64,000 nt of DNA from contig NZ_CP023317.1 of NCBI RefSeq assembly GCF_009497655.1, positions 1,207,501 through 1,271,500 on the forward strand. Direction: 5' to 3'. The number at the start of each line of letters is the position of its first letter. Within the stretch, counting starts at the first letter, position 1. The notes beneath the pieces are model-generated. The model saw only the letters and a list, made by a program, of their open reading frames with translations, did no database searches and was not told where the DNA came from. The translations under genes were made by a program, and so were the position numbers. This stretch comes from Priestia megaterium (lineage in GTDB: Bacteria > Bacillota > Bacilli > Bacillales > Bacillaceae_H). Below are positions 6,419 to 62,389 of this stretch, in pieces.

Positions 6419-6865
6419 ATGCTTCAAATCCTCGAACATCAAAGAGTGGATATCGCTCTTCAAATAGTAGCTGTGCAAGTAGAAGCTTATCAAGAAGAAG
6501 CAAGGCTCATTAGCTTTTCAGATATTCCTCAGCTTACAGAAAGCAAAGAAGATGTTATGAAAAGCAAGGAAGTGTTTATCGGAGAAATAATTGAAGGTAA
6601 GCTAGCAGGCGTGCTGTCGTTTGAAAAAGAAAATGAGCGATTAACGATTTGCCGCCTTGTTGTGCGTCCTCGTTACTTTCGAAAAGGAATCGGAAGCCGT
6701 CTTTTAACATATGTACTTCAAAGATATTCAGAATGTGAGTGTATGGTTTCCACAGCCGAAAAAAATACACCTGCGATTAAGCTATACGAAGCTCATCGGT
6801 TTTCAATTATAAAACACACTGCAGCTGCGGATAATCTTGTGTTAGTAACGATGAAAAGAGATTGA
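6419..6865 (+). CDS. GNAT-family N-acetyltransferase
   Basis: 148 residues from the ATG at 6419, which has GGAG 8 bases upstream; an in-frame GTG at 6410 is less well placed. The acetyl-CoA loop is LVVRPRYFRKGIGSRLL, followed by the motif B segment TPAIKLYEAHRFSI. It is divergent from the CotG-like gene, and its 3' end abuts a dispersed repeat that separates it from the convergent MFS gene. The acceptor substrate is unknown. Confidence 0.82.
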   Translation: MLQILEHQRVDIALQIVAVQVEAYQEEARLISFSDIPQLTESKEDVMKSKEVFIGEIIEGKLAGVLSFEKENERLTICRLVVRPRYFRKGIGSRLLTYVLQRYSECECMVSTAEKNTPAIKLYEAHRFSIIKHTAAADNLVLVTMKRD

Positions 6866-7123
6866 GACATAGCTAGATTAATCCAAAGACTAACAAATTG
6901 GCTACATGAGCTAGTAGGAATCGGCTGTTGATTTCCCTACAAGGCTTCGCTTTCCGCAGGAGTCTTCGCCTTGCCCTCCAATCACCAGCTAGAAGTACCT
7001 ACATACATGAAACTTACGTTTACCATAGCAATAAAAAAATCCGAACGCGTTGGATTCTCCATCAAGAATCTCGATTCATCGTTCGGATCTTCCTTCAGCT
7101 AAAATACTTTTGTTTCAGCCTCT
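6862..7123 (-). repeat. Dispersed stop-codon-associated element, copy 1 (full-length type)
   Basis: Read on the minus strand it starts GAGGCTGAAACA, directly overlapping the TAG stop of the MFS gene. It contains a GATCCGAACG-type hairpin and then the GGAGGGCAAGGCGAAGACTC and GCGGAAAGCGAAGCCTTG blocks. It ends near TATGTCTCAAT next to the convergent acetyltransferase gene. It thus lies between two convergent genes and probably terminates the MFS transcript. Confidence 0.85.
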
Positions 7124-8291
7124 ATGATGATAGTGTTTGCTCAGAATAATCTAGAGCTGTATGACGCTGAATCAGCAGTAAAGCAGCTAAAGTGACAACT
7201 GCTCCGATAATAAAAGGCAGCGTCATATTGAGTTTAAAGGCAAATGCACCAAGCAGAGGGCCAAAAATACGCCCTAAGCTATCCATTGAGGCAGTTAACC
7301 CTGAAGCAGAGCCATATCCTACTTTGGTTCTCATCGTAATTAATGAGAGGACACAAGGACGAATAAGGGCATTTCCTGCTGTAAATATGCACAGAAATAA
7401 GGTAGCATTAACGGCACTAGAAGATAACAAAATAGACGTAAATCCTATTGCTGAAACCAATAAGCCAATAGCCATCAGTTTTTTTTCATTTCCTTTTTTA
7501 AATCGCTGCAGTACACCGCCTTGAATCAGGGCTTGAGTTAAACCGCTCGCCATAAACATCCATCCGATTGTCGTGGGAGTAGCATTGATTTTCGCTATTT
7601 GAAAAAATTGAAAAGTAGCTTCTAAACCAGCGAGCGTAAAAGTAGCTAAAAATGAAAGAACATATAAATACTTCATAGCTCCTTGAAAATCTGACGTGAA
7701 GTCATGCCATCTGGATGTCTGTATTTTGGCAGCAGGTTCTTTTCGTAACGATTCTTTTAACGTAAAGAATGAGAACGCTGTCATAATCAGTGACAAGATA
7801 CCAGAGATAACGAAGGGAACAAACAAGCCGAAAGACGAAAGGACACCGCCTAATGCCGGTCCAAAAATAAAGCCTAAGCCAATTGACATCCCTAACAGTC
7901 CCATTGCTTTCGTGCGGTTTTCTTCATCTGTACTATCAGAAGCGTATGCAAAAGCACAAGGAATAACAGCTCCTGCAAACAAACCTCCGATGATGCGTGA
8001 CGTATACATCAGAGTCAAAGAGTTTTCTGCCACCGAAAAAAGAAAAAAGCTTGCGCTAAAGCCAAGTAAGCCCCAAAGTAAGATGGGACGGCGGCCTTTT
8101 ATATCGGAAAGCTTCCCCCAAAAAGGTGCGGTAATAAAAGATGCGATCGAATAGCTAGCCATTAGTATCCCTAAATTGACCGTGCTTGCACCCGTGGCAC
8201 GAATAACTTCAGGTACGATGGGGATGATCACGCCAAAGCCGACAAATACCATAAAAATAACAAACATTAACGTTCCAAGCTGTTTGTTCAT
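7122..8291 (-). CDS. MFS drug/metabolite exporter (DHA1 type, 12 TM)
   Basis: About 389 residues with 12 predicted membrane segments. Motif A is GKLSDIKGRRPILLWG between TM2 and TM3. The TM5 motif C-like stretch reads GLGFIFGPALGG. Both are typical of DHA1 drug:H+ antiporters related to Bmr and Blt. ATG 8291 is preferred over TTG 8297, since GAAAGGGG lies 11 bases upstream of the ATG. The substrate cannot be predicted and no adjacent regulator is visible. Confidence 0.83.
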   Translation of the reverse strand: MNKQLGTLMFVIFMVFVGFGVIIPIVPEVIRATGASTVNLGILMASYSIASFITAPFWGKLSDIKGRRPILLWGLLGFSASFFLFSVAENSLTLMYTSRIIGGLFAGAVIPCAFAYASDSTDEENRTKAMGLLGMSIGLGFIFGPALGGVLSSFGLFVPFVISGILSLIMTAFSFFTLKESLRKEPAAKIQTSRWHDFTSDFQGAMKYLYVLSFLATFTLAGLEATFQFFQIAKINATPTTIGWMFMASGLTQALIQGGVLQRFKKGNEKKLMAIGLLVSAIGFTSILLSSSAVNATLFLCIFTAGNALIRPCVLSLITMRTKVGYGSASGLTASMDSLGRIFGPLLGAFAFKLNMTLPFIIGAVVTLAALLLIQRHTALDYSEQTLSS

Positions 8292-8466
8292 ATGCAATTA
8301 AGCCCCTTTCTCTGTAGAACATGCCGTGAGTTTAGTATACCAAATACAAAGACGTTTTTTACGTATATTTGGTAAAAAGCGCTTTATTTATAAGTGAAGA
8401 AAACATGTTAATATTTACCTGTTGCGCTGAAACTGATACAATTAAAAGAAAAGGGACGTGAAGCAA

Positions 8467-8661
8467 TTGCCAATATGGATTGTATTTGCTGGGATTATAG
8501 GCGGTCTTTTAGGATTTGGGGCGCTAGTGGATTATATAGCTAAAAAGAGAAGTGTCGAGCTAAATCCAGAAGAAGGGATAAAGAATGCTTCTGATGCAGA
8601 ACAAATCTATGTGGAAAATTACCTTTATCAAACAAAAGAAAATAACAATCACTTTCAATAA
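8467..8661 (+). CDS. Small single-pass membrane protein, unknown function
   Basis: 64 residues from a TTG at 8467. The upstream AAGGGACGTG resembles the full anti-16S sequence, so the in-frame GTG at 8458 is probably part of the ribosome binding site and not the start. One N-terminal membrane helix (PIWIVFAGIIGGLLGFGALV) is followed by a charged cytoplasmic tail rich in Glu and Asn. No family is recognised. It is monocistronic, with a strong terminator shared with the convergent permease gene. Confidence 0.65.
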   Translation: MPIWIVFAGIIGGLLGFGALVDYIAKKRSVELNPEEGIKNASDAEQIYVENYLYQTKENNNHFQ

Positions 8662-8664
8662 AAA

Positions 8665-8696
8665 AAAAGCTTGGAGAGAAATCTCCAAGCTTTTTT
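8665..8696. terminator. Bidirectional terminator between the small membrane gene and pbuO
   Basis: AAAAGCTTGGAGA pairs with TCTCCAAGCTTTT around GAAA, with a T-run on either side, immediately after the two convergent stop codons. Confidence 0.88.
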
Positions 8697-9996
8697 AATG
8701 CGGTAAAAAGATGAGCTGATAGAGAAATAAAACAGCAAAGACATACACAAGCGGATGAACTTGTTTGCCTTTTCCTTTTACCAGCTTCATTAACGGATAA
8801 GAAATGAAGCCAAGCGCAATTCCTGTTGCAATACTTGATGTAAGAGGCATCGCTAGAACAACTAAAAAGGCAGGGAACGCTTCATCAAAGTCATTCCAAT
8901 TAATTTTAGCTACAGCACCCATCATCAAGCTTCCGACAATAATTAATGCAGGTGAAGTAATAGCTGCTACGCCAGAAACCGAGCTTACAACCGGGCTAAA
9001 GAATGCTGCCACGATAAATAGAATGGCTACCGTCACGCCCGTTAGACCTGTACGTCCGCCTGCTGCTACACCAGATGAAGATTCAACGTAAGCGGTTGTT
9101 GGGCTTGTACCAAATAAAGCGCCAATCGTTGTACCAAAGGAGTCAGCAAGCAATGCTTGACGCACGCGAGGCATCTTATTACCTTTCATAAGACCGGCCT
9201 GTTGAGCTACGCCTACCATTGTACCTGTTGTATCAAAAATCGTCACAAGTAAGAAAGAAAAAACAACTGTGTACAAATCATGATGAATAACATCTCCAAA
9301 AGCAGCAAAAGGATTTGAAATCATTAAGCCATCTGGAAGGTGAGGGGAAGCAAACAAACCTTTATCAAATGAAAGCTGTCCTCTAAAGAAAGCAATTAAT
9401 CCGGTAATAATCATACCGAAGAATAAAGCGCCGTTTACATTTAGCGTATATAAAATGATTGTAATCGCAAGTCCAATCAGTGTTAAAACTACTTTCTCAG
9501 ACTGCAAATCACCAAGTCCAATTAAATTTGATTTATTTGCAACAATAATACCGGCTGAACGAAGCCCGATAAAAGCAATAAATAAACCGATACCAGCACT
9601 GATCGCGTGCTTTAAATTGTTTGGAATAGCTTCAATTAATTTTTCACGAAACGATGTTAACGATAGGATGATAAAGATAATACCCGCTACGAATACAGCT
9701 GAAAAAGCAGTAGCATAGTCGATACTTCCATTTGAACCAACAACTAAAGCAGCAAAGTATGCATTCATTCCCATACCGGGAGCAATAGCGATTGGATAGT
9801 TAGCTGCAAGAGCCATCCATAGCGTAGCTACGACTGCTGAAATAATAGTAGCTGTAAATACTTGATCAAAAGGAACGCCGGCGCTGGACAAAATAACTGG
9901 GTTCACAATGACGATATAAATCATGGTTAAAAACGTTGTAATACCAGCTAAAATCTCCGTTTTAGCATCCGTGTTATATTCTTTTAACTTAAACAT
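8695..9996 (-). CDS. pbuO: Guanine/hypoxanthine permease, NCS2 (AzgA/PbuO) family
   Basis: 433 residues with many membrane segments. The N-terminus LKEYNTDAKTEILAGITTFL and the IAIAPGMGMNAYF motif are typical of the AzgA branch. FDTTGTMVGVAQQAGL and GTSPTTAYVESSSGVAAGGR are the conserved substrate and half-helix motifs. The N-terminus is closer to PbuO than to PbuG of B. subtilis. It imports guanine and hypoxanthine by proton symport. Two CGAA-containing boxes upstream may be PurR sites. The symbol is likely but not certain. Confidence 0.82.
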   Translation of the reverse strand: MFKLKEYNTDAKTEILAGITTFLTMIYIVIVNPVILSSAGVPFDQVFTATIISAVVATLWMALAANYPIAIAPGMGMNAYFAALVVGSNGSIDYATAFSAVFVAGIIFIILSLTSFREKLIEAIPNNLKHAISAGIGLFIAFIGLRSAGIIVANKSNLIGLGDLQSEKVVLTLIGLAITIILYTLNVNGALFFGMIITGLIAFFRGQLSFDKGLFASPHLPDGLMISNPFAAFGDVIHHDLYTVVFSFLLVTIFDTTGTMVGVAQQAGLMKGNKMPRVRQALLADSFGTTIGALFGTSPTTAYVESSSGVAAGGRTGLTGVTVAILFIVAAFFSPVVSSVSGVAAITSPALIIVGSLMMGAVAKINWNDFDEAFPAFLVVLAMPLTSSIATGIALGFISYPLMKLVKGKGKQVHPLVYVFAVLFLYQLIFLPH

Positions 9997-10010
9997 AAGT
10001 AACCTCCAAA

Positions 10011-10053
10011 AATAACGAACATTAAAAGCAACATGATATATAATATTCGTTTT
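10011..10053 (-). promoter_or_regulatory. Possible PurR operator (two inverted PurBox-like motifs) and promoter of pbuO
   Basis: AATAACGAACATT (10011-10023) and, on the other strand, AAAACGAATATTA (around 10041-10053) each contain the CGAA core of PurBoxes in opposite orientation. They flank a TATTATATAT -10 region for the minus strand. Box sequence and promoter overlap fit PurR control. I am not sure the spacing of about 31 bp between cores is allowed. Confidence 0.35.
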
Positions 10054-10189
10054 TTACTTGAAATGCAATAGATATGCATATAAAAAATCAAAAACTAAAA
10101 AAGTGACGATAAAAGAGCTAAAATAAGTGTGAAATATTTCTTTTTTTCGGTGCTTTTTATAGTGTGCGCGTATAGAAGAGGCTCATACG

Positions 10190-10217
10190 AAAAAAAGCCG
10201 CTTAGGCTATAGCGGCT
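10190..10217 (-). terminator. Terminator of natRK
   Basis: AGCCGCT/AGCGGCT stem followed on the minus strand by seven T, overlapping the natK stop codon. Confidence 0.8.
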
Positions 10218-11166
10218 ATGTTGCTTGTTTTGAGGAAACGACTATCGGAAATTTTATTTTAATGGAAAGAGTTAAATCGTGATAGGTATATTCCAAGCGT
10301 CCGTGGTAGTTGGAAACAAGTTCAGAAATGATCCACGTGCCAAGGCCTTCGTGGCGTTCTTTCTTTTCTGTCACATGAAAAGAAGTAAACAAGTGATCTT
10401 GACGCTCTCGTGATAAAGGAGCGGTAGAATTGCTGACTTCTAAAATGTAAATGCCACTTCGAATCATACTCGAAACGGTTATCTCTTTTTTCTCAGAAGA
10501 ATGAGCGGCTTCTAAAGCATTATGCAGTAAATTCATGATGAGATTCATTTGGTCAAGGTGCTTTAAAGGCAGCTGTGATAACGGTGAATCTAATTGAACA
10601 TTCATATGTATTCCCCACGTATGTGCTTGATTCTTGCTTTGATGTACAACAGAAGCAACGTGCGAATGTTCACCTTGAATATATGAATGGGTATCATTCA
10701 AAGCTTCAACGTAATCTTGAATATACTCTTGTGCCTGCTGTCTTTGGTTTGTTTCTAGAAGATAGGATACGGCGCTGACATGTTTAATAAAATCATGTCT
10801 TTCAGCTCTTAATGCTTGAAAAAGCTCATTGTTTTTTTGAATTTCACGTGAAGCACTGCTTTCCCGGTTAGCTACGAATATGTATTGTTGATAAGACGAA
10901 AACATGTCGGTCATGTAACCAATCATTGTGATAACGGTAAGGCCAATACTAAGAGGTGAAGATAGGCTAAATAAAAGCAGGAAAAAAGACGTCAGTACGA
11001 TTGCTTTTTTTATCGTTAGTGAAGGAGCCGTTTGATATTTCTTTCTCCATATAAAAAATGAACCAATTATAAAAGAACTAAGTAGGAGATGTAAACTAAC
11101 AGGCAGGTCTTTAAAAAAGAGGAGCACGAAAACAGTTAGTAAAACTAGTGTGTAAAATAGTTTCAT
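10216..11166 (-). CDS. natK: Sensor histidine kinase NatK (GHKL type)
   Basis: 316 residues with an N-terminal group of hydrophobic helices (about residues 1-95). A dimerisation helix with the phospho-acceptor motif ERHDFIKH comes at about 120-127. The GHKL ATPase domain has an N-box (NLLHNALEAA) and a G-box (GLGTWIISELV). It is expected to phosphorylate NatR, whose gene lies 17 bases upstream in the same operon. The divergent neighbours are natAB, as expected for the sodium-responsive NatKR system. AAAGGAGG lies 11 bases before the start. Confidence 0.85.
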   Translation of the reverse strand: MKLFYTLVLLTVFVLLFFKDLPVSLHLLLSSFIIGSFFIWRKKYQTAPSLTIKKAIVLTSFFLLLFSLSSPLSIGLTVITMIGYMTDMFSSYQQYIFVANRESSASREIQKNNELFQALRAERHDFIKHVSAVSYLLETNQRQQAQEYIQDYVEALNDTHSYIQGEHSHVASVVHQSKNQAHTWGIHMNVQLDSPLSQLPLKHLDQMNLIMNLLHNALEAAHSSEKKEITVSSMIRSGIYILEVSNSTAPLSRERQDHLFTSFHVTEKKERHEGLGTWIISELVSNYHGRLEYTYHDLTLSIKIKFPIVVSSKQAT

Positions 11167-11183
11167 TTTAAATAGTGCCTCCT

Positions 11184-11882
11184 TTAAAAGTACTCTTTTT
11201 GCAAGATGTCTAAATTTGTTTTCGTGATTAAAGCTGTTTTTTCGGTGCTTTGAAACATCACGGAGTAGGAGTGCTTAGTATACAGGGAGAAATTTTGAAT
11301 ATAGGAAATGTTGATAATAAAAGCTCGATGCGACCTTAGAAAATGACTCGCTGTTAATTCTTTTTCAATTTCGTTTAATGATTGATAGGTACTAAATTCT
11401 CCATTTGTCGTTATGATGGTGGTAGAGCGACCCGTTCGCTCTGCAAATATAATATCTTGTTTGTTCAGCACTTGCATTTCGGTTTTTTGTTTTAAAATAA
11501 GCTTATCTCTTGTATCAGTTGATTGTTTTTTTTGATGAAAACGCTGAATGCCTTTTAACAGGCGCTCTTTAGAATAAGGCTTCATAATGTAGTCTAAAAC
11601 GTTGAGTTCAAATGCATGAACGGCAAAGCCGCTGTGCCCAGTGACAAAGATGACTTGAATATCAAGTGCGTAAGCATTGATAAAGTCTGCAAGCTCATAA
11701 CCTGATAGCTTTGGCATTTCAATATCTGTAATTAATAAATCAATTTCATTTTTTTTAATTTCGTTATAAGCTTCCTCCGCGCTGCTAGTCGAAAAAAGTA
11801 TGTCTATATCATCTTCTCTTTCTAAAGAAATCCTCAATTTTTCTAAATCATATGAATGATCATCCACTAATCCTACCTTCAT
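11184..11882 (-). CDS. natR: Response regulator NatR (REC-LytTR)
   Basis: 232 residues from the ATG at 11882, where GAGGG lies 9 bases upstream; longer in-frame starts have no ribosome site. The receiver domain has acidic D7-D8, the phospho-acceptor D53 in LLITDIEMP, and the K of MKPYSKERL. The C-terminal LytTR DNA-binding domain covers about 135-232 (FLRSHRAFIINISYIQNF). In B. subtilis NatR controls natAB, and here natAB is divergently oriented 176 bases away. Direct repeats in that gap are candidate binding sites. Confidence 0.88.
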   Translation of the reverse strand: MKVGLVDDHSYDLEKLRISLEREDDIDILFSTSSAEEAYNEIKKNEIDLLITDIEMPKLSGYELADFINAYALDIQVIFVTGHSGFAVHAFELNVLDYIMKPYSKERLLKGIQRFHQKKQSTDTRDKLILKQKTEMQVLNKQDIIFAERTGRSTTIITTNGEFSTYQSLNEIEKELTASHFLRSHRAFIINISYIQNFSLYTKHSYSVMFQSTEKTALITKTNLDILQKEYF

Positions 11883-11942
11883 AAATAAAAACCCTCTTTG
11901 TTTTATTCTATTGGATATTACCACACTATTTTACCATGATTT

Positions 11943-11998
11943 ACAAGATGGAAAGGACGTTTCGCGACATAAAAAACCCTCTTTATGACAAGATGGAA
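11943..11998 (+). promoter_or_regulatory. Candidate NatR binding repeats upstream of natAB
   Basis: The 11-mer ACAAGATGGAA occurs exactly at 11943-11953 and 11988-11998, 45 bp apart (about four helical turns) and on the same strand, in the divergent natR/natA gap. LytTR regulators bind direct repeats, so this is a plausible activator site; the match itself is seen, the role is inferred. Confidence 0.5.
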
Positions 11999-12057
11999 GA
12001 TGCTGTATAAAAAATAAGCTAAGATATAGTCAATCACAGTAAAAGGGGAGAGCGGAT

Positions 12058-12795
12058 ATGATTGAAATCAAAGGTGTGACGAAATATTTCAAAGAGAAAA
12101 AGCAAACAATTACAGCTGTTCAAGATATTCATGTAACCATCGCACAAGGAGAAATTGTAGGACTATTAGGGGAAAATGGAGCGGGGAAAACAACTCTTTT
12201 ACGTATGCTGTCGACTGTACTTGAACCATCGGAAGGTAATATGTTCATTCACGGAATAAACATTCATAAACAGCCTGATAAAATAAAGAAAAAAATCGGC
12301 GTGCTTTTTGGCGGTGAAACAGGTTTATATGACCGTTTGACTGCGCGTGAAAACTTATCTTATTTTGCTAAGTTTTATGGAATGAGCAAACATGAAACAA
12401 AGATAAGGATTGAGGAACTGGCCAAACGTTTTGGAATGAAAGACTACTTGGACCGTCGCGTCGGAGGCTTTTCAAAAGGAATGCGTCAAAAAGTAGCCAT
12501 TGCACGCACTATTCTTCATAACCCGGACGTTATCCTATTTGATGAACCGACTACAGGATTAGATATTACATCAGCAAACATGTTTCGCGAGCTTATTAAA
12601 AGTCTGCAAAGAGAAGGAAAAACGATTGTTTTTTCCAGTCACATTATGGAAGAAGTGGAGATGCTGTGTCAATCTATCATTATGATTCATAAAGGAAAAA
12701 TGATTTATCAAGGAACAAATGAACAGCTGTATAAAGAAGAGGAAAGTACAGACTTAAACTACATCTTTATGTCGCGTATCGTGAGGGGGGCTTAA
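12058..12795 (+). CDS. natA: Sodium efflux ABC transporter ATP-binding protein NatA
   Basis: 245 residues, one ABC ATPase domain. The Walker A motif is GENGAGKTT near residue 38, the signature reads GFSKGMRQKVAIAR near 138, and Walker B plus D-loop is VILFDEPTTGLD. The switch His lies in VFSSHIMEEVE. It should energise NatB for Na+ export. AGGGGAG lies 7 bases upstream. natB follows after one base. Confidence 0.9.
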   Translation: MIEIKGVTKYFKEKKQTITAVQDIHVTIAQGEIVGLLGENGAGKTTLLRMLSTVLEPSEGNMFIHGINIHKQPDKIKKKIGVLFGGETGLYDRLTARENLSYFAKFYGMSKHETKIRIEELAKRFGMKDYLDRRVGGFSKGMRQKVAIARTILHNPDVILFDEPTTGLDITSANMFRELIKSLQREGKTIVFSSHIMEEVEMLCQSIIMIHKGKMIYQGTNEQLYKEEESTDLNYIFMSRIVRGA

Positions 12796-12796
12796 T

Positions 12797-13963: not shown

Positions 13964-14226
13964 GAGATTGGGCAAAAGTAGTTTAGTTGAAGGAAGGTCC
14001 GAACGAGTAATCGTTCGGATTTTTCTATTGGAATGGTGAACGTAGGTTTCAGGTATGTAGTTAGTTGCTTCTAGCTGTGGGTTGGAGGGAAAGACGGAGA
14101 CTGCTGCGGGGAAAGCGAAGTCTTGCACGGAAATCAACAGCGGTGTCACAAGCGCTTCATAATAGCTCATTCACCCCATTTGTTTGTATTAAATTGAAGT
14201 GATTTCGTTATGTCTCAACTTTTTTG
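13964..14226 (+). repeat. Dispersed stop-codon-associated element, copy 2 (full-length type)
   Basis: It begins GAGATTGGGCAAAAG directly after the natB TAA. It has a TCCGAACGA/TCGTTCGGA hairpin followed by TTTTTC. The middle block includes GGAAAGCGAAGTCTTGCACG, and the element ends TTATGTCTCAACTTTTTT. The GC-rich middle is shorter than in copies 7 and 8. Confidence 0.85.
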
Positions 14227-14277
14227 TAGGGAAAGAGCAACAAAAAGAGAATGTAGAAAGAAAGGGGAGTGGAACAA

Positions 14278-27762: not shown

Positions 27763-27845
27763 CAAAAGTTTAGAGGGCTTTTCATTGACTTATTAGTGGA
27801 CCTTTTGTAAAATAAAAACAACTTAATACATTTACTTCTTACGGA

Positions 27846-27970
27846 GTAAAGGGGAGTAGCGTCAGGGAAACCTGAAACAAAGTCGTCATTACATGGAGTA
27901 TTCCATCGGCTTTGTTGGCATAATGATTATGCTTAGCAAGACCTTTGCCATATTTGGCAAAGGTCTTTTT
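27846..27970 (+). promoter_or_regulatory. yybP-ykoY manganese riboswitch with terminator
   Basis: AAAGGGGAGTAGCGTCAGGG at the 5' side, GGCTTTGTTGGC and AGCAAGACCTTTGCC match the yybP-ykoY aptamer. The expression platform is ACCTTTGCC/GGCAAAGGT with TCTTTTTG (27940-27970). Mn2+ binding is known to prevent termination, which raises expression of the downstream exporter. Confidence 0.92.
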
Positions 27971-34431: not shown

Positions 34432-34545
34432 GCGGCTGGGACAAAAATATTTTAGCCGAAGTAAAAAACGAACCACTGATATTAGTGGTTCGTTTTTTGT
34501 TATGGTGAACGCAGGTTTCAAGTATGTGGTTGCTTCTAGCTGTTT
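34432..34545 (+). repeat. Dispersed stop-codon-associated element, copy 3 (3'-truncated)
   Basis: It starts GCGGCTGGGACAAAAATATT. The ACGAACCACT/AGTGGTTCGT hairpin with TTTTTG follows, then GGTGAACGCAGGTTTC and TTGCTTCTAGCTGT. After this the similarity stops and no GC-rich block or TATGTCTCAA end is present. It serves as terminator of phaRBC. Confidence 0.8.
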
Positions 34546-36120: not shown

Positions 36121-36398
36121 GAGGCTGGGACAAAAATATGTTAGTTGAAGGAAGATCCGAATGAGTTTGTTTCTTGATTAAGAATCCAACTCGTTCGGAT
36201 CTTTTTATTATGATGGTGAACGTAGGTTTCATGTAGCTGCTTCTAGCTGTTGATGGGAGGGCGAGGCTTATCGACCGCCCGCGGAAAGCGAAGCCTTGCA
36301 CGGAAATCAACAGCGGTGTCACAAGCGGTTCAACGCATTTATCCTAGTTGTTCGTATTTAGAGTAAAGTGATTTTGTTATGTTTCAACCGCTTTTTTA
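36121..36398 (+). repeat. Dispersed stop-codon-associated element, copy 4 (full-length type)
   Basis: It starts GAGGCTGGGACAAAAATATG, 2 bases after the ktrD stop. The GATCCGAATGAGT/ACTCGTTCGGATC hairpin is followed by TTTTTATTATG. Then come GACCGCCCGCGGAAAGCGAA, GCACGGAAATCAACAGCGG and the end TTATGTTTCAACCGC. Confidence 0.88.
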
Positions 36399-42063: not shown

Positions 42064-42188
42064 GAAGCTGAGACAAACGTAGTTTAGTTGAAGGAAGATC
42101 CGAACGGTTTTGATTCTTGATGGAGAATCAAATTCGTTCGGATTTTTTTAATAATAGGGCAAACGTAGGTTTCACGTGTCTCAATTTC
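42064..42188 (+). repeat. Dispersed stop-codon-associated element, copy 5 (short type)
   Basis: It starts GAAGCTGAGACAAACGTAG, 8 bases after the nadE stop. The GATCCGAACG/CGTTCGGATT hairpin with a T-run is followed by GGCAAACGTAGGTTTCACG and the end GTCTCAATTTC. The GC-rich middle is absent; the element is 125 bases. Confidence 0.82.
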
Positions 42189-44514: not shown

Positions 44515-45205
44515 AGACAGTTTTTTAGATAATATTGCAGCTAATCTTAAGCGAAGCAGGCGAACAAGCGGCGTAGTAAAGCCCCAATGGAAGCATGCTC
44601 CTCAGCATGAGGTCTACCGCAGCTATTCGCCAGATCAATTAAAGAAAGAGCTTGAAAACCATTGCGAACGTATTCATACTCGCTATGTAGAAACATCATC
44701 ACAACACTTGCCAGCTGTCCTTGAGGAAGCCGTAGCGAACTATGGAAATGGTCTTGTGAGCACGTGGGATGATCCTAGGTTTTCCGAATATGGATTGAAT
44801 CTGCTGATGGAGAAATGGGAAACAAGCAGTAGCCTTCATGTATGGAATTCTGCAAAAGGCGATGAGAATATTAAACTAGCTGAACAAGCAAATGTAGGCA
44901 TCACATTCAGTGATTTGACGCTAGCGGAATCCGGCACAGTTGTTTTGTTCAGCAGCGCTGCAAAAGGACGATCGGTCAGTTTGCTGCCGGCCACTTATAT
45001 TGCGATCATTCCTCAAAGCTCCATTGTCCCTCGCATGACACAAGCTGCTGAAATGATTCATGAAAAAGTAGAGCGAGGAGAAACGATTGCTTCTTGCATT
45101 AACTTTATTACGGGACCGAGCAATTCAGCTGATATTGAAATGAATCTAGTCGTTGGCGTGCATGGACCTATTCAAGCCACTTATATTGTAGTGAATGATC
45201 GATAG
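44492..45205 (+). CDS. lutC: L-lactate utilization protein LutC
   Basis: 237 residues, LUD domain, with [20 protein letters not shown] and [18 protein letters not shown] as family motifs and [19 protein letters not shown] near the end. AAAAGGAGTG sits in the end of lutB, followed by three consecutive ATGs (44486, 44489, 44492). The last has the best spacing. The TAG stop codon itself forms the beginning of a dispersed element. Confidence 0.9.
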
Positions 45206-45327
45206 AGGCTTGGGAAAACGTATTTTAGCCGAAGTGAAAAACGAACCGTGAATCAAACATGTTGATTCACGGTTCGTTTTCTTTGTTATGTTGAGCATAG
45301 GTTTCATTTTGTTATGTCCCAGCCTCT
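45205..45327 (+). repeat. Dispersed stop-codon-associated element, copy 6 (short type)
   Basis: It starts GAGGCTTGGGAAAACGTATT inside the lutC stop codon. The ACGAACCGTGAATCA/TGATTCACGGTTCGT hairpin is followed by TTTCTTTG. The end is TTATGTCCCAGCCTC, which pairs with the start as a terminal inverted repeat. It is 123 bases long, without the GC-rich middle. Confidence 0.85.
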
Positions 45328-48335: not shown

Positions 48336-48445
48336 TTTTACTCCTCCTTATTCAAAAAGAATCCCCTATAATATATGTAGAAAAAGCAGAGAGTACTGTT
48401 ACAATTGTGTTACAAATGCAGCCAAAAAGCGCTGTTTAATAAAAA

Positions 48446-48772
48446 AGGTTGAGACATAACAAAATCAATGTCATCTAAAGATGAACAACTCGTATAGATG
48501 AACTGAACCGCTTGTGACACCGCAGTTGATTTCCGTGCAAGACTTCGCTTTCCGCGGGCGGCCGCTGAGCCTCCTCGTCGCTTGCGCTCCTGCGGGGTCT
48601 CACCCCTTCCGTTTTTCCCGCAGGAGTCTTCACCTTGCCCTCCAATCAACTGCTAGAGGGAACGAAACAGATAAAACGATATTTACCATCACAAAAAAAC
48701 GAACCACTAATCAACATGTTGATTAGTGGTTCGTTTTGCAGTGGGGCTAAAATACTTTTGTCCCAGCCTCTT
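48446..48772 (-). repeat. Dispersed stop-codon-associated element, copy 7 (longest type)
   Basis: Read on the minus strand it starts GAGGCTGGGACAAAAGTATT 1-2 bases after the mtnA stop. The CGAACCACTAATCA/TGATTAGTGGTTCG hairpin follows. Then come TTGGAGGGCAAGGTGAAGAC, CTCCTGCGGGAAAAACGGAA, GAGACCCCGCAGGAGCGCAA, GCGGCCGCCCGCGGAAAGCG and GCACGGAAATCAACTGCGG, and it ends TTATGTCTCAACC. Confidence 0.9.
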
Positions 48773-51175: not shown

Positions 51176-51329
51176 CTCTTATCTGCCAGAAAGAATTACT
51201 TTCTGTTGGAATTAGCACCGTGCCTTTGTAAAAACATGTTTTACGGGTGTGATCCACCTTAGGATGGAATGACGGTCGGTTGCTGGGCTTCACAGGGCCA
51301 AATCCCTCAGCCAACTCTTGATAAGAGTA
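51176..51329 (-). promoter_or_regulatory. S-box (SAM-I) riboswitch of mtnKA
   Basis: On the minus strand: CTCTTATCAAGAGTTGGCTG, GAGGGATTTGGCCCTGTGAA, CCCAGCAACCG, a long P3, GGCACGGTGCTAATTCCA and CAGATAAGAGG closing P1. It matches the S-box consensus at all core positions. Confidence 0.95.
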
Positions 51330-53616: not shown

Positions 53617-53724
53617 TTCTTATTAAGAGTAGGTGGAGGGACTAGCCCGATGAAGCCCGGCAACCGACTTAACGCATGTTAAGCACGGTGCTAATTCTTG
53701 CAGCAGCAGCTGAGAGATAAGAAG
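53617..53724 (+). promoter_or_regulatory. S-box (SAM-I) riboswitch of mtnWXBD
   Basis: CTTATTAAGAGTAGGTGGAG, GGACTAGCCCGATGAAGCCC, GGCAACCG, GCACGGTGCTAATTCTTGCA and GAGATAAGAAG reproduce the S-box core and P1 closure. Confidence 0.95.
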
Positions 53725-53735
53725 AGCAACGAAAG

Positions 53736-53767
53736 CCTCTTCTTAATCACAGAAGAGGTTTTTTTTA
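53736..53767 (+). terminator. Riboswitch-controlled terminator of mtnWXBD
   Basis: CCTCTTCT/AGAAGAGG around a 7-base loop, followed by nine T. Its left arm can alternatively pair with the 3' part of the aptamer. Confidence 0.9.
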
Positions 53768-53803
53768 TTAACGATATTAAACAGCAAGGGAGTTTTTAGC
53801 ATA

Positions 53804-56345: not shown

Positions 56346-56360
56346 AAGGAGGAAATAAAA

Positions 56361-56876
56361 ATGGCGCAAATTCGCTTACATGTAAATAATAAAAGAATTG
56401 AAACTCAAGAGGAAGTATCAGTTTTTCTGGCAAACAATGAAGTTATTTATGAAAACTGGGATATTACAAAACTTCCAGAAAATCTTCGTGAAAAATATGA
56501 TTTAACTGATGAAGAAAAAACAGAAATTTTAAACGCTTTTGGTGAGAATATTAAAGATATTTCTGAACGCCGCGGCTATAAAGCTCAAGATGTTATCTCG
56601 TTATCGGAATCTACACCAAACATTGATGAATTGTTAAAAAACTTTCAGCGCAAGCATATTCATACAGATGACGAAGTTCGCTTTATCGTAAGCGGTCATG
56701 GAATCTTTGTTATTCAAGGAAAAGACGGTGAATTTTTTGATGTTGAATTAGAGCCGGGCGATTTAATTTCAGTACCAGAAAACATTCTTCATTACTTTAC
56801 ACTAATGGAAGATCGTAAAGTAGTCGCTGTGCGAATTTTCGTGACAACTGAAGGATGGGTACCTATTTACGCATAA
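56361..56876 (+). CDS. mtnD: Acireductone dioxygenase MtnD
   Basis: 171 residues, cupin. KHIHTDDEVRFIVSGHGIF holds two His and the Glu ligand, and ILHYFTLMEDRKVVAVRIF holds the last His. It oxidises the acireductone to 2-keto-4-methylthiobutyrate and formate with Fe2+ (or off-pathway products with Ni2+). Last gene of mtnWXBD. Confidence 0.95.
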   Translation: MAQIRLHVNNKRIETQEEVSVFLANNEVIYENWDITKLPENLREKYDLTDEEKTEILNAFGENIKDISERRGYKAQDVISLSESTPNIDELLKNFQRKHIHTDDEVRFIVSGHGIFVIQGKDGEFFDVELEPGDLISVPENILHYFTLMEDRKVVAVRIFVTTEGWVPIYA

Positions 56877-56905
56877 CAACTACTTGTAAAGCATAGGTCA
56901 TGATC

Positions 56906-56940
56906 ACCCCGCTTTTACATCTAAAAGCGGGGTATTCTTT
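56906..56940 (+). terminator. Terminator of mtnWXBD
   Basis: ACCCCGCTTTTA/TAAAAGCGGGGT around CATC, followed by ATTCTTT. The stem is strong and the T-tail is interrupted. Confidence 0.75.
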
Positions 56941-56998
56941 GGATTATTATAAAACTAACTATTTTTATATGAATAATAAGTTTAATAGGAGGAACACC

Positions 56999-58075
56999 AT
57001 GAAAAAGAGTAAAAAAATGCTGTGGCCACTTACTTTGCTCGTGCTTCTAGTTTTTGCGCTGGCTGCCTGCACGAAAGAACAGCCAAGTCTAAACGAGAAA
57101 GCACAGGCAGCTCCAGCGCAGCAAGCGGCTTCTGCTAAGCCTGTACAGCAAGAAGGAAAAAAGATTACGAAAGATACAAAAATTGCGCTTATTTCTGAAT
57201 TTACATCAGGCACTCACGCTGCTCAGTACATAACAGGTGTGACAAAAGCGGCTAAAAAAGCAGGAGTACAGCTATCCGTTTCTGATTCTAATAATGATCA
57301 ATCTAAAATGGCGGCGTATTTAGACACGGCTATTAACCAAAATGTTGACGGTATTATGATTGACCACGGCCGGGCTGAAACCCTTGAACCTGGCGTGAAG
57401 CGCGCGATTGCAAAAGGGATTCCCGTTATTGCAACAGACGTAGAATTAAAGGTAGAAGGCGTTACAACGATTGACCAAGATGATTATATGCTTGCGCTCC
57501 AGGGGCTGAAGCAAATGATGCAGGACATTAACGGAAAAGGAAATATTGTATATGCGTTTGTTGGAGGCTTTGCACCGATGGAAAAACGCGACAGCATTTA
57601 TAAAATTATGATGAATCGCTATCCAGATGTAAAACAAATTGCCACGTTTGGAAGCGCAACAGACAACACCTCTCTAGACACTCAAAATAAAATGGCGGCT
57701 GTATTAAAGCAGTATCCAAATAAAGGAGACATTGCAGCCGTTTGGGCACCTTGGGACGAATTTGCAAAAGGAGTCACAAGAGCGATTAAAGAAGCAGGAC
57801 GAGATGAGATTAAGGTATATGGAGTGGACTTATCTGATGAAGACCTGCAAATGATGCAGGCAAAAAACAGCCCGTGGAAAGCGTCAGCTGCTGTAAACCC
57901 AGCTTCAGTAGGAGAAAAGCAGGTTGATCTGCTTCTTAAAAAGATTTCCGGTCAAGAGATCCCTCGTTATTATTCCTTTGATCCGGTTTTAGTCAAACAA
58001 ACTGACTTGCCTAATCAAACGATTAATATGGACCAGCTTAGTCAGTACGTAGAAGAATGGGGTAAAAAAGAGTAG
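56999..58075 (+). CDS. Sugar ABC transporter substrate-binding lipoprotein (ribose type)
   Basis: 358 residues from the ATG at 56999 with TAGGAGG upstream. The lipoprotein signal is LVLLVFALAACTKE, with lipidated Cys near 24. The periplasmic-binding fold type 1 has FTSGTHAAQYITGVTKAAKK, NQNVDGIMIDHGRAET and VWAPWDEFAKGVTRAIKEAG. It resembles RbsB- and YtfQ-type binding proteins. It starts the three-gene importer operon directly after the methionine salvage operon, so methylthioribose is a candidate ligand; this is inference. Confidence 0.86.
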   Translation: MKKSKKMLWPLTLLVLLVFALAACTKEQPSLNEKAQAAPAQQAASAKPVQQEGKKITKDTKIALISEFTSGTHAAQYITGVTKAAKKAGVQLSVSDSNNDQSKMAAYLDTAINQNVDGIMIDHGRAETLEPGVKRAIAKGIPVIATDVELKVEGVTTIDQDDYMLALQGLKQMMQDINGKGNIVYAFVGGFAPMEKRDSIYKIMMNRYPDVKQIATFGSATDNTSLDTQNKMAAVLKQYPNKGDIAAVWAPWDEFAKGVTRAIKEAGRDEIKVYGVDLSDEDLQMMQAKNSPWKASAAVNPASVGEKQVDLLLKKISGQEIPRYYSFDPVLVKQTDLPNQTINMDQLSQYVEEWGKKE

Positions 58076-58091
58076 AAGTGGAGGGACAGAC

Positions 58092-59597
58092 ATGACGAAC
58101 GAGCTTTCAATGAAGAACATTACAAAAAACTTTGGTTCTTTTCAAGCGCTGAACAAAGTTGATTTTACTGTTCAAAAAGGGGAAATTCATGCTTTATTGG
58201 GAGCCAATGGTGCCGGTAAAAGTACGTTGATGAAAATATTGTGCGGAGCTTACGACGAGTACGAAGGAAAGATTTACAAAGACGGAGGAGAAATCTCTAT
58301 TTCTTCTCCTAAAGAAGCGAAGAGCCACGGCATCGGCATTGTACACCAAGAAGTCGATGTAGCGCTGATTCCTTCGCTATCAGTAGCTGAAAACATTGTG
58401 TTAGACGTGCAGGTTTCTAAGAAAAGTAAGACATTTGTAAACTGGAAATCTATTTATAAGAAAGCGGAAGAAGCTCTTTCTTTACTTGGTTCTTCTTTAT
58501 CCGTTAAAAAAAATGTTGTTGATCTAACTCTATCAGAAAAACAGCAGGTGCTTATTGCACGTGCAATTGTACAGAATGTTGATTATTTAATTTTGGATGA
58601 ACCAACCGCACCTCTTAGTGTGGAAGAGACGAAACAATTGTTTTCTGTGATGAGAGAGCTGAAGAAAAGCGGAGTAGGCATTATTTATATTTCACATCGC
58701 CTTCAAGAAGTGGTTGATATTTGCGACCGCTTAACGGTTTTAAAGGACGGACGCTATGTAGCTACAAAAGAAACTTCACATACATCAATTGAAGACGTGA
58801 TTACGCTCATGTTAGGAACGTCTTCTGTAAAACAGTGGGTCAAAAAATCAGTAGAAGTTGGAAACGAACTTTTACATGTAGAAGCATTATCCCTTCCAGG
58901 GCGCCTTTCGAATATCTCTTTTCATGTAAAAGAAGGAGAGGTAGTCGGTATTGCAGGGCTTGTAGGAGCAGGGAAAACGGAGCTTTGCCGAAGTCTATTT
59001 GGTTTAGAGCAATATGTCAGCGGCAGCGTTCGGTTAAAAGGCAAGAAACTAAAGTTGAATAAGCAGCCGTATTATTATATTGCACAAGGTCTTTCTCTTG
59101 TTCCTGAAGAACGAAGAAAAGAAGGAATTTTTGTTCATGAATCGATTGCCGATAACTTAGTTTTGCCAAGTCTGTCCCGCTTTACAAATTATTCGTTTCT
59201 AAAGCGAGGAAAGATCAAAGAAAAAGCGCAGAAAACGACTGGGCAAGTTGGCGTAAAGTCTCATTCTATCGAGCAGTCAGTTGGAACGTTAAGCGGTGGA
59301 AATCAGCAGAAAGTAGCAATCGGAAAATGGCTTGTTACGGATTCTGACGTACTGTTGTTCGATGAGCCAACTAAAGGGGTTGATGTGGGCTCTAAGCGAG
59401 AGATATTCGACTTAATTACAGGGCTTGTGTCACAGCAAAAAGGCGTTGTTTATGCAACCTGTGAATTCGAGGAGCTGCTAGGGGTAGCGGATCGAATTTA
59501 TGTTATGTACAACGGGAAAATCGTGAAAGAATTATCCAAAGAAGAAGCAACTAGTGAAAAATTATTTTATTATACAGCAGGAGGAGTAAAAGGATGA
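58092..59597 (+). CDS. Sugar ABC transporter ATP-binding protein (two ABC domains)
   Basis: 501 residues with two ATPase domains, as in RbsA. The first has Walker A GANGAGKST near 35, a degenerate signature DLTLSEKQQVLIARA and Walker B YLILDEPTAPL. The second has LVGAGKTEL (degenerate Walker A), LSGGNQQKVAIGKW and VLLFDEPTKGVD. It energises the adjacent permease. GGAGGGACAG precedes the ATG and the stop overlaps the next start. Confidence 0.9.
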   Translation: MTNELSMKNITKNFGSFQALNKVDFTVQKGEIHALLGANGAGKSTLMKILCGAYDEYEGKIYKDGGEISISSPKEAKSHGIGIVHQEVDVALIPSLSVAENIVLDVQVSKKSKTFVNWKSIYKKAEEALSLLGSSLSVKKNVVDLTLSEKQQVLIARAIVQNVDYLILDEPTAPLSVEETKQLFSVMRELKKSGVGIIYISHRLQEVVDICDRLTVLKDGRYVATKETSHTSIEDVITLMLGTSSVKQWVKKSVEVGNELLHVEALSLPGRLSNISFHVKEGEVVGIAGLVGAGKTELCRSLFGLEQYVSGSVRLKGKKLKLNKQPYYYIAQGLSLVPEERRKEGIFVHESIADNLVLPSLSRFTNYSFLKRGKIKEKAQKTTGQVGVKSHSIEQSVGTLSGGNQQKVAIGKWLVTDSDVLLFDEPTKGVDVGSKREIFDLITGLVSQQKGVVYATCEFEELLGVADRIYVMYNGKIVKELSKEEATSEKLFYYTAGGVKG

Positions 59598-60628
59598 GTG
59601 CGGAGTATGTAACAGAACCTGTAGCGAAACCAAAGAGAAAAATAAGCGTTTTCGACTTTTTTTACAAATATGGGACAGTCTTAATGATTTTTGTTATTAT
59701 GATTATTTTTTCCATTGCCACACCTAACTTTTTAACAGGAGAAAACATTAGTGATATTCTGCGCTCTATTTCCATTGTTACCTTAATTGCGCTTGGTGTA
59801 ACGATATCGTTAACCGTCAACGGACTCGACTTATCTGTAGGATCTACGGCTGGTTTAGCCACTATTTTATCAGCTTCTATGCTCGTTTTACATAGACAAG
59901 AAATTGCAGTCGCTATCATTGTTCCGATTATTGCATCGCTTCTCATCGGGTTAGTGAATGCTTTTTTAGTAGTGAAAGTAAAGATTCCTGATATTTTAGC
60001 CACGCTTTCCATGATGTTTATCGTACAGGGGATTTTATTAACGTATACAAAAGGCTCAGCTATTTATACCAATATGCCTTTACCAAGCGGAGAAAGAGCT
60101 CCAGGAATTTTCATTCCTTCTTTCCTTGCGCTGGGGCAAGGTCACTTTCTAGGTATTCCCGTCCCTGTGATCATTATGCTGCTGACTGTGCTGCTTGTTC
60201 ATATCGTTTTTTCCTATACAAAGTTTGGTCGTTTTTTCTACGTAACAGGAGGTAACATAGAAGCAGCAAGACTTTCGGGTGTACCGGTTAATCGTTATCG
60301 TATGTATGCCTATATGTTTTCAGGTTTGCTTGCTGGAATTGGAGGAGTCGTTTTAGCTGCCCGTATTGGAGTAGGAGAAGTGAACGCAGGCTCACCATTT
60401 TTAATGGATGCCGTAGCTGCGACATACATTGGCTTTTCCGTATTTGGAGCAGGGAAACCGAATGTATTCGGGACGCTGATTGGCTCTATTTTAATTGGTG
60501 TGCTGTTAAATGGATTAACGATGCTAAATGTTCCGTATTATATGCAAGATATTATTAAAGGAGCTGTATTAGCAGGAGCCTTGGCTTTAACGTATTACCG
60601 CTCGAAACAAACATCTACGGCTGTGTAA
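59594..60628 (+). CDS. Sugar ABC transporter permease (RbsC-type)
   Basis: 344 residues with about eight to ten membrane helices. ISLTVNGLDLSVGSTAGLAT and GGNIEAARLSGVPVNRY (coupling helix) are hallmark RbsC/XylH-family motifs. It starts within ATGA of the ATPase stop. The terminator overlaps its last codons. Confidence 0.9.
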   Translation: MSAEYVTEPVAKPKRKISVFDFFYKYGTVLMIFVIMIIFSIATPNFLTGENISDILRSISIVTLIALGVTISLTVNGLDLSVGSTAGLATILSASMLVLHRQEIAVAIIVPIIASLLIGLVNAFLVVKVKIPDILATLSMMFIVQGILLTYTKGSAIYTNMPLPSGERAPGIFIPSFLALGQGHFLGIPVPVIIMLLTVLLVHIVFSYTKFGRFFYVTGGNIEAARLSGVPVNRYRMYAYMFSGLLAGIGGVVLAARIGVGEVNAGSPFLMDAVAATYIGFSVFGAGKPNVFGTLIGSILIGVLLNGLTMLNVPYYMQDIIKGAVLAGALALTYYRSKQTSTAV

Positions 60629-60643
60629 ACAGCCGTTTTTTTT
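60617..60643 (+). terminator. Terminator of the sugar ABC operon
   Basis: ACGGCTGT/ACAGCCGT around GTAA, seven T. The permease stop codon lies in the loop region. Confidence 0.9.
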
Positions 60644-60714
60644 CGTTTGAAATCGGGAAGAATAAGGAAAAACAATAGTATAATCTATTATTTATGTAGA
60701 AAGAGGGAGTATAG

Positions 60715-62055
60715 ATGAAACGTGTCGTCATTATAGGAGGAGTAGCCGCCGGAATGAGCGCAGCTTCACAGCTTCGCCGGATGAAAGAAAAAGAAGAAGT
60801 GGAAATCCTTGTGTTTGAAAAAGGTGGAGATATCTCTTACAGCGCATGTGGCATGCCTTACTATCTGTCAGGTGTTGTAAAAGAAAAAGACGATTTGATT
60901 GCTCGTACGAAACAAGAGTTTGAAGAGCGAAATATCTCCGTCCATCTTTTTCACGAAGTTAAAGAAGTAAACCATACAAAGAAATACATAGTAGCACAAA
61001 ATGTCAAAACGCACGCTGAAAAAGAGATAACATATGATGAACTCATCATTGCAACTGGAACAACGGCTGTTAAACCTAATTTTATGAGTGATAACATGCC
61101 GAATGTATGCACATTAAAGTCATTAGAAGACAGCGAAAGAATCTATACATATCTACAGGCTCACTCCGTAGAAAAAGTCACTATTATTGGTGGAGGATAT
61201 GTCGGAATGGAAGTAGCTGAAGCAATGAAGGCTTTGGGAAAAGAAGTACGGGTCATTGAACAGGGAAAGCAGATTCTATCTATTTTAGATCAAGACATGG
61301 CAGAGCATCTACAAAAGCAGCTAGATGACGATATTTTATTTCATTTCGAAGAAGAAGTGGAAGCATTGCTGCATTCAGATGGTTCCGTCACTCACGTTCA
61401 AACAAACCGTCAAACGTACCAAACGGATTTAGTGATTGTAAATGTAGGAGTTCGTCCGAATACGCAATTCTTAGAAAGAAACGGACTAAGAATGCTTGAA
61501 AATGGAGCTATTTTAGTAAACGAGAAGTTGGAAACCAACGTGCCTCATATCTACGCAGCGGGAGATTGTGCAACGAGCTATCACCGCGTATTAAAAAAAG
61601 ATGTTCATATTGCTCTTGGAACCATTGCCAATAAGCAGGGAAGGGTTCTTGGTTACCGATTAGGGGGAGAAAATAGAAAATTTCCGGGTGTTCTAGGTAC
61701 AAGCATTGTCAAAGTGATGGACTATGAAATCGGAAAAACCGGCATTTCAGAAAGAGAAGCAAGAGAAAATTCTCTTTTATACAAAACCATCACAGCCGGG
61801 GCTCCCAGTCATGCTTCTTACTATCCAGGAGCTGAAAAGATTGTGATAAAACTTGTTTATCATCCTGAAACAAAAGAGATTTTGGGGGTTCAAATGATTG
61901 GGAAAGAAGGAGTTGCAAAACGAATCGATGTATTTGCGACAGCTATTACTTGCCGCCTCACAACAGATGAAATAACCATGCTAGATCTTTCGTATGCCCC
62001 TCCTTTTGCTACGGTATGGGATGCTGTACAAATCGCTGCTCAAAAAGCTGAATAA
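60715..62055 (+). CDS. CoA-disulfide reductase-like FAD/NAD(P)-dependent oxidoreductase
   Basis: 446 residues. The FAD site is IIGGVAAGMSAASQLRR at the N-terminus. The single redox Cys lies in DISYSACGMPYYLSG near 43, typical of CoA-disulfide reductase. The NAD(P) site is VTIIGGGYVGMEVAEAM near 160, and AAGDCATSY near 280 is the second FAD motif. The C-terminal dimerisation domain is complete, and there is no rhodanese extension. It maintains CoA thiol redox state or reduces polysulfide. It has its own start site (GAGGGAG) after the ABC operon terminator. Confidence 0.85.
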   Translation: MKRVVIIGGVAAGMSAASQLRRMKEKEEVEILVFEKGGDISYSACGMPYYLSGVVKEKDDLIARTKQEFEERNISVHLFHEVKEVNHTKKYIVAQNVKTHAEKEITYDELIIATGTTAVKPNFMSDNMPNVCTLKSLEDSERIYTYLQAHSVEKVTIIGGGYVGMEVAEAMKALGKEVRVIEQGKQILSILDQDMAEHLQKQLDDDILFHFEEEVEALLHSDGSVTHVQTNRQTYQTDLVIVNVGVRPNTQFLERNGLRMLENGAILVNEKLETNVPHIYAAGDCATSYHRVLKKDVHIALGTIANKQGRVLGYRLGGENRKFPGVLGTSIVKVMDYEIGKTGISEREARENSLLYKTITAGAPSHASYYPGAEKIVIKLVYHPETKEILGVQMIGKEGVAKRIDVFATAITCRLTTDEITMLDLSYAPPFATVWDAVQIAAQKAE

Positions 62056-62059
62056 AAAA

Positions 62060-62389
62060 GAGGCTGGGACAAAAGTAGTTGAGTCCAAGTAAAAAAAGAA
62101 CCATTCATCAACCTGTTTGATGAGTGGTTCTTTTTTTTTTTGATGGTGCACATCGTTTTATTTGTTTCGTTCCTTCTAGCAATTGATTGGAGGGCAAGGA
62201 GAAGACTCCTGCGGGAAAAGCGGAACAGGTGAGACCCCGCAGGAGCGAAAGCGACGAGGAGGCTCAGCGGCCGCCCGCGGAAAGCGAAGCCTTGCACGGA
62301 AATCAATTGCGGTGTCATAAGCAGTCCAGCTCATGTATCTCATTTGTTCGTCTTTCGTTTGGATTTATTTCGTTATGTCTCAACCTCTT
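62060..62389 (+). repeat. Dispersed stop-codon-associated element, copy 8 (longest type)
   Basis: It starts GAGGCTGGGACAAAAGTAGT, 4 bases after the stop of the oxidoreductase gene. The AGAACCATTCATCA/TGATGAGTGGTTCT hairpin is followed by a 12-base T-run. Then come GGAGGGCAAGGAGAAGACTC, GAGACCCCGCAGGAGCGAAA, CGGCCGCCCGCGGAAAGCGA and CACGGAAATCAATTGCGGTG. It ends TTATGTCTCAACCTC, complementary to the start. Confidence 0.92.

Follow-up and report, generated by a model that had tools for sequence, protein, structure and literature searches.

Eight copies of a dispersed element in the window

The window is a stretch of 64,000 nucleotides of Priestia megaterium (contig NZ_CP023317.1, positions 1,207,501 to 1,271,500), and the subject of this study is a short dispersed element that occurs in it eight times, each time behind the 3´ end of a gene. 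All eight copies listed in an initial annotation of the sequence are present and were read and aligned, and each follows a codirectional gene, as claimed there, with the nearest upstream open reading frame (ORF) ending 0–11 nt before the copy. The plus strand carries a full-length copy of 328 bp behind a pyridine-nucleotide disulphide oxidoreductase gene (62060..62387), a copy behind a TrkH-family gene (36121..36391), a copy with a shortened core behind an ABC-2 permease gene (13964..14222), a short copy with both inverted ends behind a lutC-like LUD-domain gene (45205..45326), a short copy of 125 bp with an internal deletion behind nadE (42064..42188), and a truncated copy that lacks the right end behind a PhaC-like alpha/beta hydrolase gene (34432..34545); the last two are longer in P. 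aryabhattai. On the minus strand, a copy of 265 bp with both ends and a shortened core lies behind an MFS transporter gene (6858..7122; Pfam MFS_1), and a full-length copy lies behind an IF-2B/mtnA-like gene (48445..48770); at this last site, a plain terminator hairpin is present in G008, in G001 and in P. aryabhattai L127.

The alignment of the eight copies revealed a common layout of GAGGCTGGGACA or a variant, a hairpin with a T-run, and GGTGAACGTAGGTTTC or a variant, to which the longer copies add a GC-rich core and a right end that pairs with the left end. In the full-length copy at 62060, these parts are the left terminal inverted repeat GAGGCTGGGACA (62060..62071), the internal terminator-like hairpin with its T-run (62091..62137), the GC-rich core (62183..62306), which also occurs twice and inverted in an IS1182-type element of a genus-mate as well as in other Bacilli, and the right terminal inverted repeat TGTCTCAACCTC (62376..62387), all on the plus strand. 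This copy folds 6 standard deviations below shuffles. With up to one mismatch, GAGGCTGGGACA has five matches in the window against 0.10 expected, a number that none of 100 shuffles reaches; the five matches are five of the eight copies, and the remaining three copies are more diverged. In the whole genome, 50 copies of at least 300 bp had their right end scored, most of them 300–350 bp long. At the MFS gene and lutC, the first base of the element completes the stop codon, as the initial annotation had noticed. The lutC stop codon is finished by the element end as TA|G at window position 45205 and as T|GA in P. aryabhattai (L127 14174), and therefore the GAGG end of the element can supply stop codons.

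Genome-wide distribution and orientation

To count the element, the 5.24 Mb genome of the window (G000; window at G000:C1:1207501-1271500) was searched with a model that used sequence alone and covered positions 1–100 of the element. By its nadE gene, a 99% match to P. aryabhattai B8W22, this genome falls in the P. megaterium/aryabhattai group. Since 150 of 1,441 candidates were scored, the count is a lower bound: G000 holds at least 150 copies, with E-values from 5e-24 to 4e-7. ORFs were called with a simple script, for the 142 copies outside the window in about 3.4 kb around each. Read in the orientation of the element, the neighbours of the 150 copies are tandem sense at 88 sites, tandem antisense at 5, convergent at 53 and divergent at 4, and no copy is intragenic. 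A codirectional upstream ORF is found at 141 of the 150 copies, at a median distance of 8 nt from its stop codon; 100 of these 141 copies start within 15 nt of the stop, 123 within 30 nt and 134 within 60 nt. The bias in strand and distance that the initial annotation had proposed to tabulate thus holds genome-wide, and the copies inside genes that would have spoken against it number 0/150.

Convergent sites are hardly informative on orientation, and therefore the tandem sites, with 88 sense against 5 antisense copies (p about 1e-20), provide a fair test. The orientation rule of the initial annotation is accordingly strong (88/93 in sense) and not absolute (5/93 antisense). The antisense copies look like reversed insertions at terminators, because in four of the five the far end lies 0–37 nt from the stop of the opposite gene. 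If the replication terminus is assumed near 2.4 Mb, 127 of the 150 copies are oriented with replication, and 20 of the 23 opposed copies follow a codirectional upstream gene; the rule appears to concern the direction of transcription and not that of the replication fork.

A terminator-like hairpin within the element

The hairpin was assessed with a strict test (stem of at least 12, T-run, within the first 130 nt of the element). In sense, 133 of the 150 copies pass it, compared with a shuffle mean of 5.4, which agrees with the earlier description of the element as terminator-bearing, whereas only 1 of 65 longer copies passes when read inward from the right end. The element therefore brings its terminator-like hairpin facing one direction, and this would account most simply for the biased orientation. 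A laxer test was positive for 149/150 sense copies but also for 85/150 shuffles, and was replaced by the strict one. The 3´ end of the internal hairpin lies about 77 nt from the element start, and the stem sequences vary, with 72 different 10-mers among 149 hairpins (lax test). By a lax test, 24 of the 52 genes in the window are followed by a terminator-like hairpin within 110 nt, and all eight copies are positive by nearly the same test; therefore, roughly a third of the terminator-like hairpins of the window may be element-derived.

Terminator hairpins are replaced at the insertion sites

To characterize the insertion sites, all 40 modelled copies in two blocks of G000 (18 in 1164–1384 kb and 22 in 687–1053 kb) were compared with G008, and some also with G001 and named relatives. 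Filled and empty sites were told apart by insert length, as the end-match score overlaps between them (up to 12/18 in one empty site and 11/18 in two filled sites). In G008, 28 of the 40 sites are filled, with inserts of 146–553 nt, most of which have clear element ends. The remaining 12 (1176620, 1202717, 1256173, 1294538, 1319992, 1364130, 736681, 786076, 810587, 920189, 1037208 and 955909) are empty, and each has a plain terminator-like hairpin in the place of the element. Site 955909 was counted as filled by the gap rule and was recognised as empty by eye; at the 11 empty sites that the gap rule detected, the replaced piece is 16–29 nt long. The hairpin sequences of the empty alleles differ between sites. 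The 500-nt flanks of the sites that differ in presence are 88–99% identical.

In an example pair, the relative has a stop codon, an A-run, a hairpin and a T-run; in G000, the stop codon and both runs are unchanged, and the element takes the place of the hairpin. Both flanks are retained at 11 of the 12 empty sites, some with single-base changes, and the right flank is altered at 1202717. The copies at 955909 and 1202717 have a lost or degraded right end. In some copies, an additional base pair remains next to the element, which looks as though the stem itself had been cut. The orthologous loci without the element that the initial annotation had called for thus exist, and all 12 of them agree with its proposal that the element spreads by targeting the 3´ ends of genes. 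Its statement that copies start at a stop codon holds as regards proximity; the actual target, however, is the rho-independent terminator whose hairpin lies behind the stop codon, and not the stop codon itself.

At 17 sites that could be compared in G001, two are empty (1256173 and 1294538), one is rearranged, and 1191310 holds a short piece only. The plain hairpin at 1256173 is common to G008, G001 and P. aryabhattai, and that at 1294538 to G008 and G001; because several relatives share it, the filled state at these two sites is the derived one. In the more distant L128 (= G004), a plain hairpin was seen by eye behind the genes at 5/5 sites. A 2-kb insertion of G001 at 1176620, considered as a candidate autonomous element, was rejected, as it holds an unrelated gene and has no element ends.

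The flanks were surveyed for the 85 copies of which both ends were confidently placed, leaving aside 65/150 with a low-scoring end. An A-tract is present at 72, a T-tract at 80 and both at 69. No direct repeat flanks 81 of the 85 copies, and the other 4 have a 2-bp repeat. Such a lack of target site duplication is unusual for a miniature inverted-repeat transposable element (MITE) and is expected for a stem-loop-replacing element.

Relatives of the IS1182 family

Of the 398 genomes of the class, 151 contain the 12-mer end GAGGCTGGGACA; the reversed control matches at most once on each strand of a genome. In some of these genomes, inverted GAGGCTGGGACA pairs lie 1.8 kb apart, and six such elements, from G222, G065 and G080, were read. 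These 1.8-kb elements have perfect 12-nt ends with a terminator-like hairpin inside each, and a long ORF resembling a transposase gene, which is split in two in one of them (L283). The three transposases tested (534–562 aa) score 414–427 bits against NF033551 transpos_IS1182, for which the cut-off is 270. Plasmid insertion sequences (ISs) of Kurthia gibsonii (pND2a) and Cytobacillus pseudoceanisediminis match the element at 15/15 nt at both ends, and a Terribacillus plasmid IS matches at 12/15 nt. In alignments that included three of the eight window copies, the left end has ACAAAA and the right end mostly ACATAA, in the ISs and the Priestia element alike. The left-end alignment comprised four ISs, these three window copies, four short copies from other genera and one viral contig, and its first 15 nt do not vary. 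Of nine complete ISs of other Bacilli, 4/9 have clear A-tract/T-tract flanks (by eye).

Within the genus, matches to the IS1182 transposase occur in G002, G004 and G006 and are mostly fragments or frames with stops. One of them lies in an element of 1,626 bp in G006 (L264 1096-2721; G006:C15) that consists of a matching left end, a terminator hairpin, an inverted core, a broken IS1182 transposase, a second core, and a right end almost the same as the Priestia one. The two core copies, inverted relative to each other, have 84% and 76% identity and stand on either side of the transposase remnant, in the manner of a subterminal repeat of a parent IS. From this arrangement, the L264 element would be the best candidate for the parental type. 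An intact parent IS with these ends was not found in the Priestia genomes searched. The GC-rich core extends beyond Priestia, as it was detected (E up to 1e-6) in 23 of 200 class genomes, including G000, and in 15 of 95 genera. The viral contig L227 has the same ends and, by eye, the GC-rich core in the opposite orientation.

Spread and decay of the element

Matches to the element model are unevenly distributed within the genus, with none in G004 and G005, 5–13 weak ones in G009, G006 and G002, 44 in G003 and at least 149–150 in the richest carriers (G000, G001, G007 and G008). A search for the element in E. coli genomes and phages returned no match. The extent of the nadE and trkH copies differs between strains, and at 1191310 the first part that is left in G001 ends with the internal hairpin adjoining the native T-tract. 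Where compared in this way, the short copies are internal deletions or truncations.

In other genera, 30 loci were returned, 18 of which were readable on the plus strand (five each in G311, G185 and G046, and three in G048). A codirectional upstream ORF at 2–152 nt is present at 13 of the 15 loci of G311, G185 and G046, and absent at two. At all three loci of G048, the nearest called upstream ORF is antisense and 82–107 nt away. G048 belongs to the genus g63 (~2 Mb; G048, G082, G155, G166 and others), in which several genomes have 45–61 exact GAGGCTGGGACA copies and others none or few. In the three G048 loci read, the GAGGCTGGGACA end is followed by AAAAGTCCTAGCCTC; because of this and the antisense ORFs, the g63 copies may be a separate family.

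Other features of the window are distinct from the element. An Rfam search of the window gave four gathering-level matches, none of them on the element copies: they are three SAM riboswitches and one yybP-ykoY manganese riboswitch (2467–2568, 27839–27934, 51176–51327 and 53617–53723). A tandem repeat with a 12-bp period lies at 5988–6227, with 14 overlapping 84-nt register copies.

Discussion

We consider it highly probable that the element is a MITE derived from an IS of the IS1182 family, that it moves by stem-loop-replacing transposition, and that it supplies its own terminator. An IS1182-type transposase provided in trans would recognise the hairpin of a rho-independent terminator; the hairpin would be removed between the A-tract and the T-tract, and the element would be inserted there without target duplication. 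After insertion in sense, the internal hairpin could restore the lost termination, which an antisense insertion mostly could not, so that selection for working termination would lead to the nearly uniform orientation. The copies would then decay by internal deletion. Catalysis by an IS1182 transposase, termination by the hairpin in vivo and orientation by selection are the parts of this scheme that we infer.

In its composition, the element agrees with a MITE: it is short, has no transposase gene, reaches at least 150 copies, and has terminal inverted repeats whose ends pair. Its derivation from an autonomous transposon with such ends is supported by the broken L264 element in G006 and by the complete ISs of other Bacilli, which are about 1.8–2 kb long. 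With the IS1182 family, it shares the terminal inverted repeats and the replacement of a hairpin without duplication, observed at 12/12 empty sites. The copies read have no room for an encoded transposase, and the element is therefore classed not as an IS but as a non-autonomous relative, which a transposase of the family may mobilise.

Several observations weigh against this interpretation. Transposition itself was not observed. Most empty sites were compared with a single relative, which leaves the direction of change to be inferred there, and 1202717 and 1319992 are filled in G001 and empty in G008. The candidate parent L264 is broken, and its ends match at only 11/12 and 10/12 positions; for the two IS1182 frames of the genus that are long and unbroken (G002:C51 and G006:C2), the stretches examined show no such ends (best 9/12), and the GC-rich core was not found in the nine complete ISs of other Bacilli at E up to 1e-3. 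No IS1182 transposase was detected in G000, G001, G003, G005, G007 and G009, and G008 has one chance-level match, so that no driver was seen in the copy-rich genomes; the transposase may have been lost or may lie on DNA outside the sequences searched. Among the full-length copies (48 of 50), the median nearest-neighbour identity is 87% and the highest 96%, with 7/48 at 90% or more, and therefore the last burst of the element is not very recent. Copies on plasmids, with 99.4% and 87% matches, were rejected as a sign of recent movement, as their gene neighbourhoods are the same loci as on the G000 chromosome. The sequences concerned, NZ_CP069405.1 and NZ_CP069400.1 of P. megaterium CDC 2008724129, are labelled plasmids and hold loci that are chromosomal in G000, element included; they are either mislabelled or moved pieces of chromosome.

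An exchange of terminator hairpins that needs no transposase, through a template switch in replication or repair at A-tract/T-tract microhomology that copies one terminator over another, is unlikely. It would account for the A-tract and T-tract kept at most sites, for a hairpin exchanged between them without duplication, and for the copy-rich genomes in which no driver transposase was found; however, the incoming sequence has two ends, which are those of IS1182-family ISs, and the hairpins of the empty alleles differ in sequence. We attach very little weight to the view that the copies are ordinary, non-mobile terminators, conserved as 3´ untranslated region (UTR) modules by vertical descent. 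Most copies are indeed shared by descent, as 28 of the 40 sites are also filled in G008, but presence differs at the other 12 despite closely similar flanks, 150 copies with related ends stand at many different genes, and two genomes within the genus, G004 and G005, are without matches.

The palindromic ends, extragenic location, high copy number and hairpin targets could also be those of a single-strand element of the REP/RAYT or IS200/IS605 type mobilised by a Y1 transposase. Such an origin is extremely unlikely, since PF01797 (Y1_Tnp) occurs in only 1 of 10 genus genomes (G006), with none in G000, G001, G007 and G008, and since the termini and the parent-like IS point to IS1182. There is similarly next to no likelihood that the stop codon or the end of translation, rather than the terminator, is what the element recognises: the median distance from the stop and the stop codons completed at lutC and the MFS gene would suit such a reading, but the replaced piece is a hairpin at every empty site, and for 18 of 141 copies the distance to the stop exceeds 30 nt, as it can for terminators.

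Group IIC introns and DUS pairs also link a mobile or repeated sequence to rho-independent terminators. The introns enter next to the terminator stem and depend on a reverse transcriptase, and DUS pairs are uptake signals. DUS terminators are mentioned in PMC2267715. The closest parallel to the Priestia element is TnSha1/IS1272 of the IS1182 family in staphylococci, which is reported to target DNA secondary structures including, often, terminators, to delete the stem-loop bluntly, to leave no target duplication, to have terminal inverted repeats and to show no primary sequence specificity (PMC4923244; PMC5678879). Its transposition has been termed inverted-repeat-replacing or stem-loop-replacing, with target structures of 21–85 bp, a range that the replaced pieces in Priestia overlap and extend below (PMC5678879). 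This likeness concerns the mechanism as described. IS1272 is about 1.9 kb long and encodes its transposase, whereas the Priestia element is mostly no longer than about 350 bp, has no transposase gene and reaches at least 150 copies. TnSha1 is described in both orientations in one terminator, whereas the Priestia element has its own terminator-like hairpin and lies nearly always in sense. With the IS1182-family ISs of Bacilli, the element shares the GAGGCTGGGACA ends; it differs in that those ISs encode a transposase and that its GC-rich core was not found in nine of them. The repeats bcr1–bcr3 of the Bacillus cereus group resemble it as MITE-like bacillus repeats often found in UTRs, and differ by description, as the accessible text of PMC3446304 describes no hairpin-replacing target.

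In one open-licence library, none of the titles or abstract openings listed for terminators with insertions or repeats, bcr1, IS1272/IS1182, MITEs of the IS1182 family and Priestia MITEs, nor any title listed for the end sequence, described the element. The initial annotation knew no name for it. The kind can now be named: the element is a non-autonomous IS1182-type element replacing terminators, apparently a transposase-less relative of the IS1182/IS1272-type stem-loop-replacing transposons, and this kind is already known. Its scale, its built-in terminator and its biased orientation seem to be new. The initial observation is confirmed, and its reading as a terminator cassette is supported and right in substance.

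The positional rule of the copies is thus explained by a concrete mechanism. Stem-loop-replacing transposition has been described for IS1272 (PMC4923244; PMC5678879), and the Priestia genomes offer natural before/after pairs for it, twelve here and probably dozens genome-wide, and a ready system to measure terminator turnover. The element suggests a safe route to high copy number, which is to strike the terminator between genes and to bring a replacement part; the gene probably ends properly after the insertion by means of the element's own stop signal. On present evidence, we hold it to be an evenly balanced proposition that MITEs of this hairpin-replacing type, which make good the termination that they abolish, have remodelled a considerable fraction of the transcription terminators of Priestia, and probably of many other Bacilli in which these ends occur. 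In that case, a selfish element would have become a main origin of new terminators and 3´ UTRs.

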